Origin: an uncultured Bacteroides sp.
Lineage (GTDB): Bacteria > Bacteroidota > Bacteroidia > Bacteroidales > Bacteroidaceae
Direction: 5' to 3'
Assembly (NCBI GenBank): GCA_934716785.1
Contig: CAKUYM010000018.1
Location: 1 to 29,377, forward strand
DNA: 29,377 nucleotides
Shown here: positions 16,701 through 25,082 of the stretch, in pieces
Position numbering within the stretch: position 1 is the first letter of the stretch
How the letters are laid out: each line of letters starts with the position of its first letter
Notes under the pieces: model-generated
Seen by the model: the letters and a program-made list of their open reading frames with translations, nothing else
Told to the model about the DNA's origin: nothing
Database searches by the model: none
Position numbers and translations under genes: made by a program

Positions 16701-17891
16701 TTATTCAAACAGCTTCGATAAAGCCTCATCCAACTTCTCGCCCCTTAAGTCACTATCAATAACAATTCCTGTAGAGTCCACAAGAAAAGTTTTAGGTATA
16801 GCATAGATACCATATATATCAGCAGCATCCACATCCAGCAATTGTATCCAATTCATTCCAAGTTCTTCAATAGCAGCTCTCCAAGGTTTCAGTTTCCGGT
16901 CTATAGATATGCTAATCACCTCAAATCCCTTAGAAGCATATTTTTCATAAGCCGCTTTCACATTAGGCATCTCATGCCGACACGGACCGCACCATGAAGC
17001 CCAAAAGTCAATCAATACATATTTTCCTTTACCAACATAATCAGACAAAAGCGTTATACTACCGGCATCATCTTTCACCTTAGCATCCGGAAAACGTTCG
17101 CCAATCTTTATCTTGGCATCCATTTCTTTCCGTTTTTTCTCTTCTTCACGCTGTTCCGGAGTCATTCTATTTTCAACTTCCGCCTTCATGCGCAACTCTG
17201 CCTGCTTTTTCTTTTCCACAATATTTTTCACCAAATCGTTTTGCGAAAATATAGGCGAAGCTTCTTCCATCAGAGCCTTCATATCATCAAAAGACATCAC
17301 CATACCTCCAATTGTAAAAAGGTATACCCCCACTATACTATTCTTATAATCCTTTATACAATGCGATATAGAATCTATTTGCGAGAAAAAGATCTTATCA
17401 ATTCTATCATGCTTTGCTTTAAATGCGGTATCATTCCACATCTTATCTATAAATACTCCCGGCTCAACACCAAGAACAAGATCATAAATTGCCTTTGTTG
17501 TCTGGTTCAGATTATCCATTATAGCCTGCATATAATTTAAGGCTACATTCAATGAATCATTCAAAGGTGTTCCCCCTCTCTCTTTCGCAGCTATATTCAC
17601 TGAGATTTTCCCCCTTTCAAGGATTATCGGGTAAGTTTCTCCATCCCGATCCTTGATGATTGCAATATCCGGCATCTGATGTACACCGGAAAAAGAGAAT
17701 TTTCCTTTTTTCACTTTCGCACTGTCGAGAATGACTTCTTTAGCTTCCTCTCCATCACCCATCAGACACAAATACAACAATTGATTATTCAATTCCTCAT
17801 TAGCAATGCCTTTAATAGAGAACCTTCCCTGAGCCGAGGACAATACAGCAATAGCACAAAGAGCACATAAAATCATAATTTGCTTTTTCAT
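16701..17891 (-). CDS. TlpA-like thiol-disulfide oxidoreductase with DUF4369-type N-domain
   Basis: The protein has 396 aa. A signal peptide MKKQIMILCALCAIAVLSSA targets it to the periplasm. Residues ~22-110 form the DUF4369-type beta domain common in Bacteroides TlpA homologues (FSIKGIANEELNNQLLYLCL, KKGKFSFSGV). A central helical and very Lys/Glu-rich linker (~225-260) leads to a thioredoxin domain (~262-396). This has IDFWASWCGPCRHEMPNVK, with CxxC at C301/C304, and the cis-Pro motif YAIPKTFLVD. It could reduce or isomerise disulfides in exported proteins. It is the last gene of the 21619-to-16701 run, 37 bp after the transglutaminase-like lipoprotein. The Cys-rich lipoproteins nearby are plausible substrates, by context only. 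Confidence 0.9.
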   Translation of the reverse strand: MKKQIMILCALCAIAVLSSAQGRFSIKGIANEELNNQLLYLCLMGDGEEAKEVILDSAKVKKGKFSFSGVHQMPDIAIIKDRDGETYPIILERGKISVNIAAKERGGTPLNDSLNVALNYMQAIMDNLNQTTKAIYDLVLGVEPGVFIDKMWNDTAFKAKHDRIDKIFFSQIDSISHCIKDYKNSIVGVYLFTIGGMVMSFDDMKALMEEASPIFSQNDLVKNIVEKKKQAELRMKAEVENRMTPEQREEEKKRKEMDAKIKIGERFPDAKVKDDAGSITLLSDYVGKGKYVLIDFWASWCGPCRHEMPNVKAAYEKYASKGFEVISISIDRKLKPWRAAIEELGMNWIQLLDVDAADIYGIYAIPKTFLVDSTGIVIDSDLRGEKLDEALSKLFE

Positions 17892-17928: not shown

Positions 17929-20016
17929 TTAAGGATAGATGAACTTCTGTCGCCCATCACTATCCACATAAAATGGGAGTTCTTCTTTTCCTCCCGTCAA
18001 GTTTCTGAGCCATAAAAGTGAACCGGACGGAACACTGACTGCAATATAATTATATTTAGCCCGTTCACTCAGGATTTTCTTCCATTCACCATTATCCCAA
18101 CAGAACAATTCATATTGATTACCAGTTATAATACCATTGTCAGCATTCAATGGCATCATCCGTATCTTTGTAACAAATTGAGGTTTCTCCAACATAAAAC
18201 GTATAGTCGGGTAAGGCTCCGGAGATGTTTGCGGATTACCGTCGTATTCAGCTTTCCATTTAATCCGTTCCAAAGGTTCATCCATTAGTCGGACTTCAGT
18301 TTTATTTCCAGATAAAGTATCCCCAGATGAGAGTATCGGCAAAGGAGATGACGCAATGACATTCTCATATCCATATCGAATGTCAGTTATAAATTCCAGT
18401 TCCGACAGGGTGGCATGAGGATATTCATCCGTTGTCTTTATCTGATAATATTGATAAGGTCCTTTATTCATGTCAAGTTTTATATCCTGAAAATAAGGTT
18501 GTAGTGTATCCGCTATTATCCCGACAGTATCACAGGGCTGAAAACCGGGGTCATTACTCGCCTGAATTACCGTTCCAATCAATTTTACCACCTTATCCAC
18601 CAACCCTTGCTTCACAGGGAACTTACGAAGCAATGTCACATCATCAACCTTTCCTTCTATATGAGACTTAATTATCTCCCCACCTTTATCCAAATAGAAA
18701 GGTTCTCCAAAAGAGAATGACTTACCAAATGGTGAATAGTAAACAGGGAAATAGTATCTATCCGGAATTACAGACGAGAAAGTGACATTCTGTTTCGTAC
18801 GATTTATTTTCCCCCAAGTTACAGGAATGATGCCAGAAGGCACCCCACTATTAAAAGTAGCAAGATATGCCAAATTATTATTCCCGTTTTCCCGATAAGG
18901 AAGAATCAAAGGGATGGTCTTCAACAAATGCGAAGTAACATCTTTCAGAAACGGAGAATCAAAAATGTCCGGGATATATTCACCGTTATTCTCCATAAAG
19001 AAAGGCGTATCCTTTTGCTCAGAAAACATAAAACGATACACATTCAACATTTCTTCAGGCTTCAAAAAGCTACCATCAATGGTGGGTAACGAAGATTCAG
19101 GATTAAACATCAGCCAATCCTTGTTTTTATCCAATACAACAGCGTAATAATGCCTTCCCTGGAATTTCTTATAAGATGAATTAAACTCCACGGCAGCAGG
19201 TATGCCACATGCCCTCAATATAGACACACCATAGTTTGCAATCGGAATACAATCATGAAAGCCATGAAAGAATAGTTCCTGATAACCAACTTCTTCTTTA
19301 TAAGGATAAGGCGGAAAGAACTCGCGCGTTCGTCCTATTACATAGTTATATTTCTGAGCCACTTCCCGCAAGGAGTCCTTATTGACAGCCGACAGGTATT
19401 TATTCATAAACGCGGCATAACCATCCGAGAAATCAATCAATGAAAAATCAGGGATACTTCGATAAGAGAGCACATATTCGTAAAAATCTTCGGCAGACAG
19501 CCGTTGCAAACCAGTTATTTGTCTTTTCAATTCAAATACATGATCGATATGACTTATTAGTTGCGCGGCCTTCACCCAATGAAGATCATAACCATCTTTC
19601 CAGAGAATCCGGACAGGTTGTTCCGCAACTCTTTCACCCTGTTTCTCCCGAAAGCCAACTCGAACCTCATTTATCATTTTCCGCGCTTTTTCAGTATATA
19701 AACTATCAGCAGCCAAAGAAACCGAGCAGAAAAGAAGAGAGTCCGCGACTCCCGTCAGTGAATCCAACAACGGATGTTGCCGCGGATTCCTTACGGAATA
19801 ATACGAATGATGATGCCGCATATTCGCAATTAAAAACTTTGCGGCTTTCAATTTTTGAGGTTCATGCTTATAATGCTTCAATACCGTTTCCAAGTCAGTT
19901 CTGTTCGCCCCGAAAATTGACAAGACAGTATCAACACGTTTGTCTACTTCACTCGCACAGCCTGACAACAGAAACAGAAAAAAAGTAATAACAAGGCTAT
20001 TCTTTATCATATTCAA
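17929..20016 (-). CDS. Transglutaminase-like lipoprotein
   Basis: The protein has 695 aa and starts MNMIKNSLVITFFLFLLSGC (lipobox LSGC, lipidated C20). An in-frame ATG at 20010 is an equally good start. The middle contains a transglutaminase/cysteine-protease-like core: DCIPIANYGVSILRACGIPA (C256), GRHYYAVVLD (H289) and WLMFNPESS (N305). The usual third triad residue, Asp, appears replaced by Asn. The C-terminal third is beta-rich with an F5/8-type-C-like look (HATLSELEFITDIRYG, PTIRFMLEKPQFVTKIRMMPLN). It would sit at the outer membrane or face the periplasm. Family members act as peptidases, amidases or crosslinkers; the substrate is unknown. It is spaced 25 bp after the O-antigen-ligase-like gene and 37 bp before the TlpA-like gene, so an operon is likely. 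Confidence 0.75.
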   Translation of the reverse strand: MNMIKNSLVITFFLFLLSGCASEVDKRVDTVLSIFGANRTDLETVLKHYKHEPQKLKAAKFLIANMRHHHSYYSVRNPRQHPLLDSLTGVADSLLFCSVSLAADSLYTEKARKMINEVRVGFREKQGERVAEQPVRILWKDGYDLHWVKAAQLISHIDHVFELKRQITGLQRLSAEDFYEYVLSYRSIPDFSLIDFSDGYAAFMNKYLSAVNKDSLREVAQKYNYVIGRTREFFPPYPYKEEVGYQELFFHGFHDCIPIANYGVSILRACGIPAAVEFNSSYKKFQGRHYYAVVLDKNKDWLMFNPESSLPTIDGSFLKPEEMLNVYRFMFSEQKDTPFFMENNGEYIPDIFDSPFLKDVTSHLLKTIPLILPYRENGNNNLAYLATFNSGVPSGIIPVTWGKINRTKQNVTFSSVIPDRYYFPVYYSPFGKSFSFGEPFYLDKGGEIIKSHIEGKVDDVTLLRKFPVKQGLVDKVVKLIGTVIQASNDPGFQPCDTVGIIADTLQPYFQDIKLDMNKGPYQYYQIKTTDEYPHATLSELEFITDIRYGYENVIASSPLPILSSGDTLSGNKTEVRLMDEPLERIKWKAEYDGNPQTSPEPYPTIRFMLEKPQFVTKIRMMPLNADNGIITGNQYELFCWDNGEWKKILSERAKYNYIAVSVPSGSLLWLRNLTGGKEELPFYVDSDGRQKFIYP

Positions 20017-20041: not shown

Positions 20042-21619
20042 TCATTCAAAATTCTCTTCTGTCAACAATCTCGTTTGTTCTCTTTTCATTTCTCTCTTCA
20101 TCATCCGGATAGTTGAGGTCTTAATTTTCATTGGTTTATCTATAATTGACTTGGCAACATCAAGCATACGCTCCCGGTTGCCCATATCCTTATATAAATA
20201 GAACAACTTATGAAGAGGCAGGAAACGGGAAGGACACATCATAGATGCATTAGCATAATACTTCTCTGCCAACTCATGCTTATCCAACTCCTGATAGTTT
20301 TCACCTATCATAAGTTCCAAATCATAATCCGCCCAATATTTACGGCATTTCAACGCCACTTTCAGACTCTCGTCATATTGCTTATTCTCCAAAAGTATAG
20401 CTGCATAATTATAAAGGAAGTACGGATTATTTTCAAATTTCCCCTCTAACTCAGCATATACCGGAAGAGTTTTTCCGGACACTCCATAAAGTGCAAGACC
20501 TGATACCTTTCCCCATTCCTTTTCTGCCATTACACGCTCTACCAATTTGTAAATACCTCCAAATGAACAGAAAAGAATAAAGATACATATGACATTCTTT
20601 ATCATCGAACAAGCAAGAATCTCTGTAATATACTCCTTTGTAAAGATAACGATACACAAAAGTGTGACAATCCACGTAAAAGGATATGTGAACGGATAGG
20701 AGAAGAATGAAAATACACCTATTGATATAAGGGAATAAAGAGCTATCCGTTTCTCCAGACAAGGGTGTGTTTTATAACAGTACATTAACAATGTTATCAC
20801 TGCAAATATCATTAACAAGCCGACAAATCCAAAATTCAGGAGAACTCCCACATATTCATTAAAAGGATGTTTTACATTATCAGCTAACATAGAATAATGG
20901 TTCTCTCCGTGTTGTCGGAAATAATCTGCCTGATAATCCATATAACGAGCTTCAAAGCTACCTACCCCGTGACCAAACCACGGTGCATCTTTTATCATAT
21001 CTGCGCTACATCGCCAAATAAGTAACCTACCGTCAGCAGAGTCTTTTTTCATCCAGTAACATCCCAACAGTAATAAAGCGAAACATACTAAAGAAAGACA
21101 TTTCATCCATCTTTTATGAAAGAACTTTATATTCAAAAGAATAAAACAGATAAAGGCAATGCTCATAACACCCGCTCTTGATTGCGACAAAAACACAGCT
21201 ATTGCAATTACGAATCCTGCCACCCATCCTACATACCTGATATATTTATTCTTGTCCGACAATAAGAATCCTGCAAAAGGAAAGCCTGCACAGAGACATG
21301 CCGCAAAGCCCGCAGGATTGTCGAAACTCCCTGTAACCTCAAAAGTAGTGGACACCTGAAAGAAGCCAAGAAACTGAACTATTCCGAGCATTGCCTGCAA
21401 AAAGCAAGAAATAACAATGATAAAACCATACACAGCTCCTCTCAGATCCTCATGTTTATTCTGTCTGCAAAATAGTATATACACAGATTCATATATCAAT
21501 ATTACTAATAATAGAAACGCTGCAAAACACCATTTAGGAACAATATACGAATCCGTAAATTGTCGTGAATAGGCAAAAAGACTACCCAAGCACAATACTG
21601 CAAACAAACTATGAGACAT
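20042..21619 (-). CDS. O-antigen ligase-like (Wzy_C) membrane protein with C-terminal TPR repeats
   Basis: The protein has 525 aa. About ten membrane segments occupy residues 1-370, with the family motifs TGSFDNPAGFAACLCAGFPF and FLSQSRAGVMSI. The long periplasmic loop carries GRLLIWRCSADMIKDAPWFG HGVGSFEARYMDYQADYF (contiguous) and the H-P-x-N-E-Y motif (KHPFNEYVG). After the last helix, ~385-510 are TPR-like helices (LYNYAAILLENKQYDESLKV, YQELDKHELAEKYYANASMM). Wzy_C enzymes transfer or polymerise lipid-linked glycans. Bacteroides carries many such TPR-tailed homologues beside secreted-peptide or lipoprotein loci rather than O-antigen clusters, so a role in glycosylating a local lipoprotein is possible but unproven. 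It is first gene of its operon as read. Confidence 0.88.
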   Translation of the reverse strand: MSHSLFAVLCLGSLFAYSRQFTDSYIVPKWCFAAFLLLVILIYESVYILFCRQNKHEDLRGAVYGFIIVISCFLQAMLGIVQFLGFFQVSTTFEVTGSFDNPAGFAACLCAGFPFAGFLLSDKNKYIRYVGWVAGFVIAIAVFLSQSRAGVMSIAFICFILLNIKFFHKRWMKCLSLVCFALLLLGCYWMKKDSADGRLLIWRCSADMIKDAPWFGHGVGSFEARYMDYQADYFRQHGENHYSMLADNVKHPFNEYVGVLLNFGFVGLLMIFAVITLLMYCYKTHPCLEKRIALYSLISIGVFSFFSYPFTYPFTWIVTLLCIVIFTKEYITEILACSMIKNVICIFILFCSFGGIYKLVERVMAEKEWGKVSGLALYGVSGKTLPVYAELEGKFENNPYFLYNYAAILLENKQYDESLKVALKCRKYWADYDLELMIGENYQELDKHELAEKYYANASMMCPSRFLPLHKLFYLYKDMGNRERMLDVAKSIIDKPMKIKTSTIRMMKREMKREQTRLLTEENFE

Positions 21620-21887: not shown

Positions 21888-22148
21888 CTAATCGCTATTC
21901 TTCCTAATCATATGTAATACATTTAATAGGATTACAAAAAAAACGACTATGCTTGGAATATAATTTTTCAAACACCTACTTTGTTTAGGCATTTTACTTA
22001 TCGTATAAAAGAAAATACTAAGCCACATCAAAATATAAGTTCCTGAAATATACCAATCATTTATAATGTAGCCATAAATTCTATTTATTGTCATAAGTAA
22101 GACAGAAAGCAAAGCAAATGAAATAAAAATATTATAAAGATATTTCAT
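21888..22148 (-). CDS. Small 3-TM membrane protein of cassette 1
   Basis: The protein has 86 aa. Three hydrophobic segments are visible: ~5-25 (YNIFISFALLSVLLMTINRI), ~33-52 (YISGTYILMWLSIFFYTI) and ~64-82 (IPSIVVFFVILLNVLHMI). Short basic loops (KMPKQSRCLKNY) follow the second. I do not recognise a family. It starts 12 bp after the lipoprotein gene stop. The same order, lipoprotein then roughly 90-aa 3-TM protein, recurs in cassette 2 (23979-24278). That argues for a dedicated role such as anchoring, export or immunity for the lipoprotein. The sequence is strongly AT-rich. Confidence 0.7.
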   Translation of the reverse strand: MKYLYNIFISFALLSVLLMTINRIYGYIINDWYISGTYILMWLSIFFYTISKMPKQSRCLKNYIPSIVVFFVILLNVLHMIRKNSD

Positions 22149-22160
22149 ATTTATTATTTA

Positions 22161-22814
22161 TCAAGCATTCTGCATACAATCATAATAACTACGATCTGCC
22201 AATGTTATAGCATAATCGTAAGCCGCAGAAGCTGCGATAGCACAAAAACATGCCCCCAAACCACCGGTTGCACAAGAGCAGCCCACCATTGCCGCTAAAT
22301 AAATAGCGGAAGCGTAGGCATAATCTTCATTAAGCCTTCGTCTGCATTCTTCACTACCAACACCACCACCTTCACCACGAGTTTTTACCATCACTTTTGA
22401 TGAACTAACGGAATTTGTTATAAAAAGGGTAGTTTGTTCTGATTCATTTAACAAATGAAAGTTGGTATTATTTAGCAGATTATTTCTTGCATTTTCCACT
22501 ATAGCCAAATCTTCCATCAAATTAACTCCATCAACTATCCTCATCATATAATCATCATTATTCAGATTATTCATTAGTTCATCGAATTCCTCTTTACTTA
22601 ATGTTGATGTGTAAGACTGTACCTTCTCTGCCAAACTCATACAATGCTGTTTAAAATCCAAAAATTCATCAGATTCTGCAACTGAATTGACTAACGTTGG
22701 CTCCCTATCAACTTCAAAGCCATGTTCATCAGAACTACAACTGGAGATAATGATATTTATACCAATAATAAATGCAAATACGCTCAAACGTGAAATCACT
22801 TTTTTTAAATTCAT
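22161..22814 (-). CDS. Cys-rich lipoprotein with twin CX21C C-terminal domain (cassette 1, intact)
   Basis: The protein has 217 aa. The N-terminus MNLKKVISRLSVFAFIIGIN leads to lipobox ISSC (C26). Residues ~47-91 form a helical, acidic module (SDEFLDFKQH, QSYTSTLSKEEFDELMNNLN, NDDYM) shared with the paralogue at 23291. A linker VKTRGEGGGVGS (143-154) follows. The C-terminal domain has C157-x21-C179 and C191-x21-C213, joined by a Gly-rich turn with two extra Cys (CSCATGGLGACFC). The equal spacing and Ala/Tyr-rich segments suggest two antiparallel helices stapled by disulfides C157-C213 and C179-C191. No database family is recognised. The KTR-x-EGG stretch resembles a processing site but is unproven. 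Candidate roles are a released peptide, a signal or a surface antigen. The -33/-7 promoter at 22928-22959 is well formed. Confidence 0.8.
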   Translation of the reverse strand: MNLKKVISRLSVFAFIIGINIIISSCSSDEHGFEVDREPTLVNSVAESDEFLDFKQHCMSLAEKVQSYTSTLSKEEFDELMNNLNNDDYMMRIVDGVNLMEDLAIVENARNNLLNNTNFHLLNESEQTTLFITNSVSSSKVMVKTRGEGGGVGSEECRRRLNEDYAYASAIYLAAMVGCSCATGGLGACFCAIAASAAYDYAITLADRSYYDCMQNA

Positions 22815-23290
22815 AATTCTTCATTTTTATCTATTAATACTAAAACTTATTCCAAAGACAAATTCATTTCCTTTTTTAAATGCAAACAATGCTTATAATC
22901 CAACTAAAAACCACTTGTTATTTTCCACAAATGTATGAACCATTTTGAGACAATACAAAAGGGTGTTACACTACTTCACCCCCACAAAGCTATATAGAAG
23001 GGGGTAACCCAATATTTTATATATTTCTCCTATTAATTGTAACAATTCATACTCCCTATTAAACTAAAACAGTCTTTTCTAAGATAAGACCTCATTAATG
23101 TTACACTCGCAAAGCCATCATAGCAGCCTAAAAAGGCTTCTTACAGTTTTCAGTTTCTCAATTTGATGCAATATTGTAACACAATAAAATGCTTCAAAGC
23201 CAAACTATTCCCTTTTTTTCAAAACAGATATCATTATAATGGAGCTTTTTTTATTACCTTGCGTCAGAATTAAACAAAACACTTACAATC
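22815..23290. other. 476-bp AT-rich divergent intergenic region
   Basis: This separates the two divergently transcribed lipoprotein cassettes. The left half carries the minus-strand promoter and a leader of about 105 bases. The right half holds T tracts and a weak -7-like TTACCTTG just before the ATG at 23291. No gene, tRNA or long inverted repeat was found. The length and paired promoters suit shared regulation of both cassettes. Confidence 0.5.
22928..22959 (-). promoter_or_regulatory. Complete Bacteroides promoter for cassette 1
   Basis: On the minus strand TTTG (22959-22956) is followed after 20 bases by TACATTTG (22935-22928). This matches the TTTG-N19-21-TAnnTTTG consensus exactly. The expected transcript start is near 22921, leaving a leader of about 105 bases before the lipoprotein ATG at 22814. 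Confidence 0.75.
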
Positions 23291-23994
23291 ATGAGAAAAA
23301 AAAGACCCTTTTTGTATTATGCAATAACGCTTGTCTGCGGATTAATGACCATCTTTATTATTTATAGCTGCAGCACGGACGAATTCTATTCTGGTGAACT
23401 ACAAATAGAAGAAAACAGGATCGCGGAAAAATCAGTGTATTCATCAGACATAATAAATAACACGAATTCACTTATTGACTCTATTGCTATTTCTGATGAA
23501 TTTTGGGAGTTTGAACGAAACAGTAAACTCTTATCTGATAAATTTCAGGCTTACACTTCAACACTGAGTGAAGAAGAGTATGACAAACTCATGGAAAACT
23601 TAAACGATGATGATTACATGGAAGAGTTTATCAGAAAAGCGAATTTAGAAAAAGAACTTCAACAGATGGATGAAGCGAAGGAAAACCTGCTTCTGCACAC
23701 CGGATTCTCCAGACTAAGCGAAGATGAACGTATTTCATTATTCCGGCAGCATACTGAGTTCCAAGAATCTACAGGTAAAACACTCATAAAAACACGCACT
23801 GAAGGAGGAGACACTAATAGCTGCGAAGCTAAAAGACAGGCTGCGTATGCGCAAGCAAAAACGGATTATGAGAATGCTATCATCAAATGTAGAACAGAAT
23901 CCTCTATAATTATTGCTACACACAAGCATTAGCTAAATATGCAAGAGACAAAGACATAGCAGACACAAACTATAAAACATGTATAGGAAAATAA
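23291..23994 (+). pseudogene. Cys-rich lipoprotein paralogue (cassette 2) with frameshift in the twin CX21C domain
   Basis: As read, the protein is 213 aa (stop 23930-23932). The start is MRKKRPFLYYAITLVCGLMT with lipobox IYSC (C27). It shares with the 22161 protein the blocks SDEFWEF, AYTSTLSEEEYDKLMENLN, DDDYM and IKTRTEGGD, plus the first CX21C (C178-C200). The second half is missing in frame, yet the other frame reads C-YTQALAKYARDKDIADTNYK-TC then IGK and stops at 23992. This restores CX21C and the IADxxYxxC tail of the paralogue. The shift lies between about 23891 and 23913. The 704-nt span is 234 codons plus 2 nt. The restored stop would overlap the next gene's ATG (23979) by 16 bp, as in an operon. 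It may be a real mutation, a phase variant or a sequencing error. The truncated protein might still be made. Confidence 0.75.
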
Positions 23995-24278
23995 TTATAT
24001 ATATAGTTCTTAATAATGTAATGTGGCTTACCAGCATTGCAATGTGTTATCTTCATCGCTTTATTGACAACCTAAATTACACATTTCAAGATTTCCTCAT
24101 TATCTTCTTCGAACTTCTTGCACGCATGACACTTGTTGCAGGAGCTATCAGTATATTTCCACAAGAACCATACTCTAATAAAAGAGTATGGTTCTATTAT
24201 ATCATTTTGGGTGGAAGCATGACTATTATTGATGCATTGGTACGATTGACTGATACTTTACAAAAGTTATTATTTTAG
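23979..24278 (+). CDS. Small 3-TM membrane protein of cassette 2
   Basis: The protein has 99 aa. Hydrophobic segments lie at ~5-25 (IIIYIVLNNVMWLTSIAMCY), ~38-60 (FLIIFFELLARMTLVAGAIS) and ~70-88 (VWFYYIILGGSMTIIDALV). It is similar in size, topology and position to the 86-aa protein of cassette 1, though sequence identity looks low. Its ATG lies inside the 3' end that the frameshifted lipoprotein gene would have if intact. A perfect 13-bp inverted repeat sits inside the coding region. The 3' end overlaps the convergent regulator gene by 9 bp. Function is unknown. Confidence 0.65.
   Translation: MYRKIIIYIVLNNVMWLTSIAMCYLHRFIDNLNYTFQDFLIIFFELLARMTLVAGAISIFPQEPYSNKRVWFYYIILGGSMTIIDALVRLTDTLQKLLF
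24164..24195. repeat. Perfect intragenic inverted repeat
   Basis: AGAACCATACTCT (24164-24176) and AGAGTATGGTTCT (24183-24195) pair perfectly over 13 bp with a 6-base AATAAA loop. It lies inside the 99-aa membrane protein gene, encoding the loop QEPYSNKRVWFY. No T tract follows that would make it a classic terminator. Confidence 0.75.
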
Positions 24279-25082
24279 TGTTGTTTGCAGAAAAATTTCC
24301 AATTCTTCATTGTCAATGCCTAAGCGTTTTCGGGCACGAGACTTCATCGTGCGATAAGTACCATCGGTAATGCAAAATATAGACAATATTTCTTCTTTCG
24401 TTTTATACATTCGAATAAGTACACATAGTACAATATCCCGTGGTGGAAGTTGACAACCTTGTTGCTTCAACCAAGCAAAAAAATCGGGATCAATTATCCG
24501 ACACTCCTCTACTAATAAAAGATAGTCTCTGGCTGAAAACTGAATAATAGACTTATTTTCAAGAATTTTACGAAGGAGAGTAATATTTTTCTGATCTGCA
24601 GGAGGAGAATCAAGCAACTGCTGTATTCTTTGAGCTTGAAGAATATTTTGCTGACGTTCGTCCGCCAACTTTTGATACAATGCAATAGAAACTTTAATTG
24701 TACAAGCTACCATTATGCCAACAACAATTAATACAGGAATAGTATACCCTGACAATACAGGTGCTATATCCAAATGAATCTCCTTCGGCATAATCATATA
24801 AATCTGATCTGCTGTAATCAGAATAAAAGCAGCTATGAATTGCCAATCTATTATCTCTGAGAAGCCAATACGTTCACCTTTTGCACGAAATGTCCACAAT
24901 AATGCTCCCACAAAAAGAATCAGCCACATTAACAAATGCATTGAAGACGAGAATGCATCAACATACATTTCAGGAAAAAAAGCCTGAAATATATAAGCTG
25001 CCAACAGAATTGCGCAACATAGCAGTCCCCCTGACAGTAATTGCTTAAAAGAATAAGTAAACTGTTTCATCATTCTCCTCAT
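24270..25082 (-). CDS. Membrane-anchored LuxR-type HTH regulator
   Basis: The protein has 270 aa. Four transmembrane segments (~16-36, 47-65, 80-98, 113-135) are followed by a helical linker rich in Gln (ADERQQNILQAQRIQQLLDS) and a C-terminal LuxR/GerE-like helix-turn-helix (~213-255: PPRDIVLCVLIRMYKTKEEI, LSIFCITDGTYRTMKSRARK, RLGI). It thus senses at or in the inner membrane and binds DNA without a phosphorelay receiver. The most likely targets are the neighbouring cassettes, a guess from position. In-frame ATGs at 25082, 25073 and 25070 are all possible. The -7 box at 25100-25107 leaves only about 10-25 bases of leader, which favours 25073 or 25070. Confidence 0.8.
   Translation of the reverse strand: MRRMMKQFTYSFKQLLSGGLLCCAILLAAYIFQAFFPEMYVDAFSSSMHLLMWLILFVGALLWTFRAKGERIGFSEIIDWQFIAAFILITADQIYMIMPKEIHLDIAPVLSGYTIPVLIVVGIMVACTIKVSIALYQKLADERQQNILQAQRIQQLLDSPPADQKNITLLRKILENKSIIQFSARDYLLLVEECRIIDPDFFAWLKQQGCQLPPRDIVLCVLIRMYKTKEEILSIFCITDGTYRTMKSRARKRLGIDNEELEIFLQTTLK

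Follow-up and report, generated by a model that had tools for sequence, protein, structure and literature searches.

A 29,377-nucleotide stretch of DNA from an uncultured Bacteroides sp. (GenBank contig CAKUYM010000018.1; hereafter, the window) encodes a predicted lipoprotein whose carboxyl-terminal tail carries two exact C-x21-C units. The explanation that we favor, to which we give an even chance, is that this protein is the precursor of a helical-hairpin bacteriocin, released by a protease and directed against related Bacteroides, with a small membrane protein providing immunity. The proposed mechanism has five steps: the 217-aa pro-lipoprotein would be displayed on the cell surface; its two C-x21-C units would form a helical hairpin clamped by disulfides; a protease specific for Arg (a C11 protease from the producer or the target, or gut trypsin) would cut after R146; the released 71-residue tail would kill related Bacteroides; and the adjacent small transmembrane (TM) protein would protect the producer. 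Several lines of evidence count for this explanation: conservation of the Cys residues, the lipobox, the Arg hinge, the TM gene, a tail that diverges faster than the rest, and the clustering of the cassettes; their patchy, tandem, and often broken occurrence; and the presence of other Cys-rich tails on the same hinge at related loci. Together, the pro-domain, the hinge, the membrane-protein partner, and the operon suggest a hairpin that can be released as a warhead. The features of the lipoprotein gene and its immediate surroundings are these:

22161..22814, minus strand: predicted lipoprotein of 217 aa, type A (six Cys), an ORF with 32 homologues; layout of signal peptide and lipobox, helical pro-domain, disordered KTR hinge, and hairpin
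22737..22814, minus strand: signal peptide and lipobox Cys26 (ISSC, then SSDEH), from sequence and C26 conservation
22416..22706, minus strand: helical pro-domain, residues 37-133, with NLNNDDYM, from AlphaFold2 (AF2) and conservation
22377..22385, minus strand: K144-T145-R146 hinge, cut predicted after R146, from AF2 disorder at 138-150 and conservation
22164..22376, minus strand: C-terminal domain of 71 residues (147-217), release predicted, from sequence and the AF2 helices
22176..22346, minus strand: twin C-x21-C hairpin, C157 to C213, with C181 and C189 in the turn, from sequence and conservation
21888..22148, minus strand: multi-TM protein of 86 aa, immunity candidate, 12 nt downstream of the type A gene
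22928..22959, minus strand: promoter candidate upstream of the type A gene, an exact match to TTTG-N20-TACATTTG

The 217-aa protein contains Cys at positions 26, 58, 157, 179, 181, 189, 191, and 213. A preliminary description of this DNA had drawn attention to two exact C-x21-C units around a Gly-rich turn that holds two further Cys, and all of this is confirmed: the units are Cys157-Cys179 and Cys191-Cys213, the turn residues are Cys181 and Cys189, and positions 22176-22346 correspond exactly to codons 213 to 157 of the ORF. The finer points drawn from the window sequences hold there as well: Tyr occupies position 8 of both units; the units end in (L/I)ADxxYxxC, which LADRSYYDC fits; and the neighboring paralogue has unit 1 in frame (23822-23890) and unit 2, CYTQALAKYARDKDIADTNYKTC, in a different frame (23914-23982). 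The six C-terminal Cys are, moreover, palindromic about residue 185.

A twin C-x21-C arrangement appeared in 655 of 200,000 shuffles of the 71-aa tail, so the pattern in one protein alone is only mildly surprising; its reality is decided by conservation and not by the shuffle test. Homologues numbered 152: 32 from a search with the type A protein, and 120 of the 155 matches to a four-Cys relative (L058). Among these listed matches, 129 of the 152 carry a twin C-x21-C, 24 of them with six Cys and 105 with four; in another 10 the first unit is C-x22-C, and the remaining 13 are cut, frameshifted, or odd. The six-Cys proteins constitute type A, most commonly C-x21-C-x-C-x7-C-x-C-x21-C, and the four-Cys proteins type B, with a loop mostly of 8 or 9 residues. 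The 29 copies read in their loci divide similarly: 24 with twin C-x21-C, one with C-x22-C, and four with neither. Conservation of the Cys spacing, on which the preliminary description had staked its case, therefore holds for most homologues among the matches listed, but the C-x22-C and odd copies mean that C-x21-C spacing is not absolute.

The 152-homologue count is the unpicked measure of conservation; the alignments have a narrower scope. Alignment A2 is 17 of the 34 rows of A1, and the rows of A3 (45) and A4 (74) were picked by hand, judged intact by eye, so that "invariant" applies to the chosen rows only. Within the chosen 45, the only invariant columns are the lipobox C26, F131, C157, C179, C191, and C213, and pro-domain residues N85, D87, and Y89 are nearly invariant; within the chosen 74, the invariant columns are the matching Cys, that of the lipobox included, and one Lys, the K of the hinge.

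Structure prediction gives substance to the helical-hairpin idea. The AF2 model of the type A protein (45 sequences; mean pLDDT 76.4; pTM 0.71) has a disordered N-terminus (1-36), a helical pro-domain (37-133; pLDDT about 87-95 per ten-residue block from residue 41 to 130), a disordered linker (138-150), and a tail consisting of two helices (154-177 and 190-216). A four-Cys relative is modeled with the same layout, though less confidently (mean pLDDT 67.5; pTM 0.46), with a linker at 158-172 and helices at 175-202 and 208-234. The two long helices are what had been envisaged, and the 22-residue step from one Cys of a unit to the other leads back to one helix face: the step is 40 degrees off at 100 degrees per residue, and 0 degrees off in a hendecad repeat, of which it spans two. 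Landing on the same face offers a simple reason for the x21 spacing.

The palindromic arrangement suggests that disulfides would more likely form across the hairpin (C157-C213, C179-C191, and C181-C189) than within units. Relative L055 (3724-4392) retains the outer two Cys and has lost both inner ones, which fits cross-hairpin disulfides, as if one had been lost whole; relative P0146, missing one inner Cys alone, fits them less well. Hydrophobicity further separates the two types. The highest Kyte-Doolittle mean over 19 residues reaches 1.6 or more in all 25 six-Cys hairpins and in none of the 115 others; by this sequence measure, the six-Cys hairpin is hydrophobic enough for membrane entry, and the four-Cys hairpin is not. 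This split makes it probable that types A and B act on the envelope in different ways: the six-Cys hairpin would act at the membrane, and the four-Cys hairpin would more likely bind an envelope protein or receptor.

The early impression that the pattern belongs to no named family was upheld by the searches. Pfam and NCBIfam returned no family above cut-off for the 217-aa protein; PHROGs contained none at E≤0.01; and PDB sequences gave nothing better than E 0.37 with a profile built from 45 relatives. PADLOC gave one weak match, to PDC-M49A (17.2 bits), confined to residues 32-86.

The promoter candidate is an exact match to the Bacteroides-type promoter consensus; the window contains two such matches against 1.14 expected by chance, so this evidence is weak. 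The predicted localization draws on the residues behind the lipobox: one to three acidic residues lie at +2 to +6 in 127 of the 128 lipobox-bearing homologues among the matches listed, as judged from sequence only. Acidic residues right behind the lipobox Cys are described as the Bacteroidetes lipoprotein export signal, or LES (PMC5080379).

Between the pro-region and the C-terminal part lies a putative Arg cut site, and cutting there is predicted. Among the matches listed, 126 of the 139 intact homologues have a K/R-x-R-x-E hinge, which is KTR in 117. The 13 exceptions comprise seven KSP or KIP sequences (P0006 and kin), three KTH, two from which the hinge is lost, and one KTR without the Glu. 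Published sites of C11 proteases include QTR in BFT and LTR in BcpT (PMC9308784); BfCDCLs are described as cut after TR by C11 proteases (PMC11169675), and Fab1 as cleaved at R200-A201 (PMC8406203). C11 proteases were detected in 148 of the 158 Bacteroides genomes overall: 15 of 19 hairpin carriers versus 133 of 139 non-carriers (Fisher p 0.02). The four carriers in which none was detected are G002, G005, G491, and G509, and the first two keep KTR hinges. Since the hinge has exceptions and carriers possess C11 proteases no more often than non-carriers, the protease may be a different one, may belong to the target cell, or may derive from the host gut. The protease that activates CDCLs is reported to sit on the target cell (PMC11169675), and a host-gut protease is noted for BFT cleavage (PMC8406203).

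The candidate immunity gene is a regular companion of the hairpin. A multi-TM gene of 84-107 aa, recognized by its hydrophobic segments, lies behind 25 of 29 hairpin copies, those in L044, L050, and L053 included. The four copies with no TM gene directly behind are two in G420, one split by an insertion, and one broken (L045 8957, L045 10833, L004 2749-3471, and L056). In all, 33 genes were examined, and four with other tails were set aside; a small TM gene follows two of these (L048 and L049 1449-2255) and is absent behind the other two (L052 3442-3990 and L058 3267-3908). In 11 of 16 type B genes the ATG of the TM gene coincides with the final Cys codon, 13 or 16 nt ahead of where the putative toxin's coding sequence ends.

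TM relatives largely track the hairpin genes across the 158 Bacteroides genomes. At E≤0.001, relatives of the type B TM protein occur in 15 genomes, all among the 19 carriers, and relatives of the type A TM protein only in G001, G303, and G154. That in G001 sits behind a type A gene. Neither G303 nor G154 has a hairpin gene match at E≤1e-5, and their TM genes resemble orphan immunity genes; the one in G303 lies near a Cys-rich KTR lipoprotein (L016) and so may not be a true orphan.

The window also contains a type B cassette and, convergent with it, a candidate regulator:

23291..23932, plus strand: paralogous lipoprotein, type B (four-Cys family), whose ORF stops early; open relatives are P0039 and L058
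23979..24278, plus strand: multi-TM protein of 99 aa, type B immunity candidate
24270..25082, minus strand: protein of 270 aa with N-terminal TM segments and a probable C-terminal helix-turn-helix (HTH; by eye), regulator candidate

The ORF of the window paralogue ends between its two units, for which real variation and assembly error are both possible. P0039 is open through both units, so intact type B copies exist. The ATG of the 99-aa TM gene overlaps the codon for the last Cys of unit 2.

Divergence was compared among 16 type B genes (120 pairs), with dN/dS medians taken from the 19 pairs with usable dS; the set leaves out the window paralogue, the insertion-cut L004 copy, both L045 copies, L054, L055, L056, and L057. 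In 113 of the 120 pairs, the tails differ more than the pro-domains do. Mean identities are 0.62 for the pro-domain, 0.44 for the tail, and 0.55 for the TM protein, and median dN/dS values are 0.18, 0.40, and 0.18, respectively. Identities correlate most strongly between tail and TM protein (r 0.88), followed by pro-domain and tail (0.85) and pro-domain and TM protein (0.72), the pairs being non-independent. A faster tail with coupled TM divergence fits a toxin-immunity pair on a stable carrier. The tail dN/dS is below 1, which makes relaxed constraint an alternative to diversifying selection, and the slight overlap of type B tail and TM sequences itself couples their divergence.

The cassettes are patchily distributed: 19 of the 158 Bacteroides genomes carry the hairpin at E≤1e-5. 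A sample of 399 genomes from the family yielded 11 matches at E≤0.01, of which eight are weak (E 1e-4 or worse) and cover only the N-terminal part. The hairpin lipoprotein had no match among phage, plasmid, or IMG/VR sequences. Tandem cassettes occur in L002, L004, L005, and L051, and G420 has four matches. Broken copies are common (the window paralogue, L004, L059, L056, and L057); in L004 2749-3471 (also L013), an insertion with a DDE transposase (PF13751) splits the tail, and the TM gene lies beyond it.

The 270-aa protein accompanies 17 of 18 type B loci, an association that raises a rather unlikely alternative: an envelope sensing or signaling unit, in which redox or surface stress would register at the Cys hairpin and the 270-aa TM-HTH protein would regulate the output. 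The protein has no Pfam or NCBIfam family above cut-off, and its relative in L054 has a LuxR-type HTH match (GerE, E 0.001) below cut-off; the overlap of the lipoprotein and TM genes would also suit such a unit. In L001 (one flank only), L003, and L059, however, no regulator gene adjoins the type A cassette. A sensor needs neither a disordered Arg hinge nor a fast-diverging tail, and tandem, patchy, and broken copies fit it poorly.

Release of the tail could instead serve contact with the host. The tail would then be a released or surface-held effector toward host or mucus (an adhesin or an immune-active peptide), and the TM protein would assist in its folding or export. Fragipain is cited as freeing many B. 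fragilis surface proteins (PMC9308784), and sequence cannot tell antagonism from host contact. We nevertheless consider a host effector unlikely: the coupling of tail and TM protein (r 0.88) and the TM genes in G154 and G303 that have no hairpin gene suit immunity better, and a patchy presence (19 of 158 Bacteroides genomes) agrees with antagonism inside the genus.

The bacteriocin explanation gains a possible extension from the genes beyond the cassette. In the window, the type A cassette is followed by these neighbors, in this order:

20042..21619, minus strand: Wzy_C (O-antigen-ligase-like) and TPR membrane protein, hallmark of the locus (PF04932, E 2.1e-20)
17929..20016, minus strand: transglutaminase-like lipoprotein (PF01841, E 2.7e-4, below cut-off)
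16701..17891, minus strand: DUF4369-thioredoxin, TlpA/ResA-like, with WCGPC (PF00578, E 1.1e-21)

Relatives of the Wzy_C-TPR protein, the transglutaminase-like lipoprotein, or both occur in 18 of 21 hairpin loci, with Wzy_C-TPR in 14; the transglutaminase relatives are mostly 23-26% identical. The DUF4369-thioredoxin could help form disulfides; in the other loci it is not conserved, with a single weak relative (L050, 23%). The Wzy_C-TPR proteins form a multi-copy family, with matches in 84 of 158 genomes at E≤1e-20, and those above 500 bits come from 15 genomes, all of them hairpin carriers. We know of no bacteriocin part for Wzy_C-TPR or transglutaminase-like proteins; the Wzy_C-TPR protein may modify these lipoproteins or help to export them.

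Regions around other Wzy_C-TPR copies were screened for lipoproteins in which three or more Cys follow a K/R-x-R-x-E hinge. Such lipoproteins were found in five of the eight regions of next-best copies (seven non-carrier genomes) and in one (L070) of a further eight regions, from carriers or around weaker copies. None occurred in 20 control regions, each of 20 kb, whose positions in ten genomes were set manually to round numbers. The difference gives Fisher p 0.0006 for the first set and p 0.004 for both sets (6/16 vs 0/20). The search rule was fixed after the first examples had been seen, so the 5/8 is exploratory; the control set is independent. The lipoproteins of the first set, with K/R-T-R-x-E hinges, are:

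L063:7894-8595, lipoprotein near Wzy_C-TPR, other tail
L064:4209-5141, lipoprotein near Wzy_C-TPR, other tail
L065:12650-13336, lipoprotein near Wzy_C-TPR, small Cys knot
L067:8776-9453, lipoprotein near Wzy_C-TPR, small Cys knot
L069:5299-6075, lipoprotein near Wzy_C-TPR, CX3C-clamped tail

By eye, these tails are unrelated to the C-x21-C hairpin. CX3C tails are also found in L048, L049, and P0153-P0161, and seven of the nine proteins P0153-P0161 have a K-x-R-x-E hinge. The lipoproteins at L052:3442-3990 and L058:3267-3908, mentioned above, contain KTRTEGG and a short Cys-rich CKKC/CAC tail, and lie about 2 kb from a hairpin cassette. In G480, the genes for the Cys-rich KTR lipoprotein and for Wzy_C-TPR flank one for a membrane protein whose C-terminal domain is thioredoxin-like (PF13905; L067:7634-8476) and which could serve as a disulfide partner.

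These neighbors lead to a more tentative proposal, which we offer as possible and short of probable: a platform of modular warheads. On a surface-anchored pro-lipoprotein that has a K-T-R-x-E hinge and is encoded beside Wzy_C-TPR, unrelated disulfide-rich tails would be swapped, and the hairpin types would have their own TM immunity proteins; the C-x21-C hairpins would be the first bacterial toxins made of a two-hendecad, disulfide-stapled pair of helices. The tails on such a platform would include six-Cys and four-Cys C-x21-C hairpins, CX3C-clamped hairpins, and small Cys knots.

The same neighbors can be turned to a quite different end, in which the lipoprotein is structural and stays uncut, the hinge serves as a flexible spacer, and glycan is added by the Wzy_C-TPR protein at a D-S-I/V site in the pro-domain. 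A D-(S/T)-(A/I/L/V/M/T) site lies in the pro-region, ahead of the domain, in 106 of the 139 intact homologues among the matches listed, mostly as IDSIA or IDSVA, and sites of the D-(S/T)-x type match the Bacteroidetes O-glycosylation motif described in PMC8550257. Wzy_C-TPR relatives of 82-90% identity lie near the cassettes in L044, L046, L053, and L058; other cassettes have more distant relatives nearby. The window's own lipoprotein, however, lacks the site, having VNSVA where relatives have LIDSIA; moreover, the conserved Arg, the TM partner, and the swapped tails would be left unexplained, and we regard a structural role as improbable. That the genes are degenerate or selfish lipoprotein paralogues of no present function, as the broken copies listed above might imply, is very improbable given a median dN/dS of 0.18 for the pro-domain and TM protein and the retention of the outer Cys across deep divergence.

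If the bacteriocin explanation is true, the hairpin is a new kind of warhead among gut bacteria and a new, very simple disulfide scaffold. The K-T-R-x-E hinge with a Cys-rich tail would likewise be a searchable signature, through which many gut bacteriocins now hidden could come to light. The diffusible antibacterial toxins described for Bacteroidales fall into few families, with four listed by the authors of the BcpT study besides BcpT, which by their account resembles no characterized toxin (PMC9308784). A fragipain mutant is reported to kill less than a Fab1 mutant (PMC8406203), from which further protease-activated bacteriocins are to be expected.

How does the hairpin compare with known systems? 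CHCH (twin CX9C) proteins, which reside in the mitochondrial intermembrane space, have antiparallel helices with two Cys per helix. The analogy to them that the preliminary description drew stands for topology and fails for membership: the units are x21 and not x9, and Pfam CHCH is absent at E up to 1. Microcin V (PF17508) matches residues 177-212 weakly, at E 0.14 and with 13.2 bits against a gathering cut-off of 27, and membership was rejected on that score. Microcin V is also a Gly-rich hydrophobic hairpin; it differs in having a double-glycine leader in place of a lipoprotein signal. Its immunity protein is a small membrane protein.

The plant alpha-hairpinins are antimicrobial helix-loop-helix peptides with four or six Cys, proteolytically released from a precursor (PMC11591084), as is predicted here. 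They differ in having C-x3-C pairs on short helices (PMC11591084) rather than C-x21-C. Their C-x3-C...C-x3-C motif is missing from the hairpin, and only the separate CX3C-type tails (L048, L049, and P0153 and kin) come near it.

Other parallels come from the Bacteroidota. The two-component BfCDCL toxins are described as antibacterial protoxins with a TR site, activated in their case by a target-cell protease; they are MAC/CDC-like pore formers with folds far larger than a hairpin (PMC11169675). BcpT/BcpI of Phocaeicola is described as a surface lipoprotein protoxin that C11 proteases cut at LTR motifs, with a small immunity gene downstream (PMC9308784). BcpT differs in being plasmid-borne, 499 aa long, and equipped with only three Cys, and in needing two cuts; its immunity protein is described as a 57-aa lipoprotein (PMC9308784), in contrast to the multi-TM candidate in the window. 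Fab1 of B. fragilis is a secreted antibacterial fragment, cut by fragipain after Arg, with its immunity gene directly downstream (PMC8406203). By description, Fab1/RFab1 parallels what is predicted for the lipoprotein: release of a C-terminal fragment from a larger protoxin, an Arg cut, and a downstream gene, here a candidate for immunity; Fab1 is 50 kDa with a 28-kDa active part (PMC8406203), as against 217 aa with a 71-aa Cys-rich tail. The lipoprotein would work like Fab1 and BcpT, a likeness drawn from their described features.
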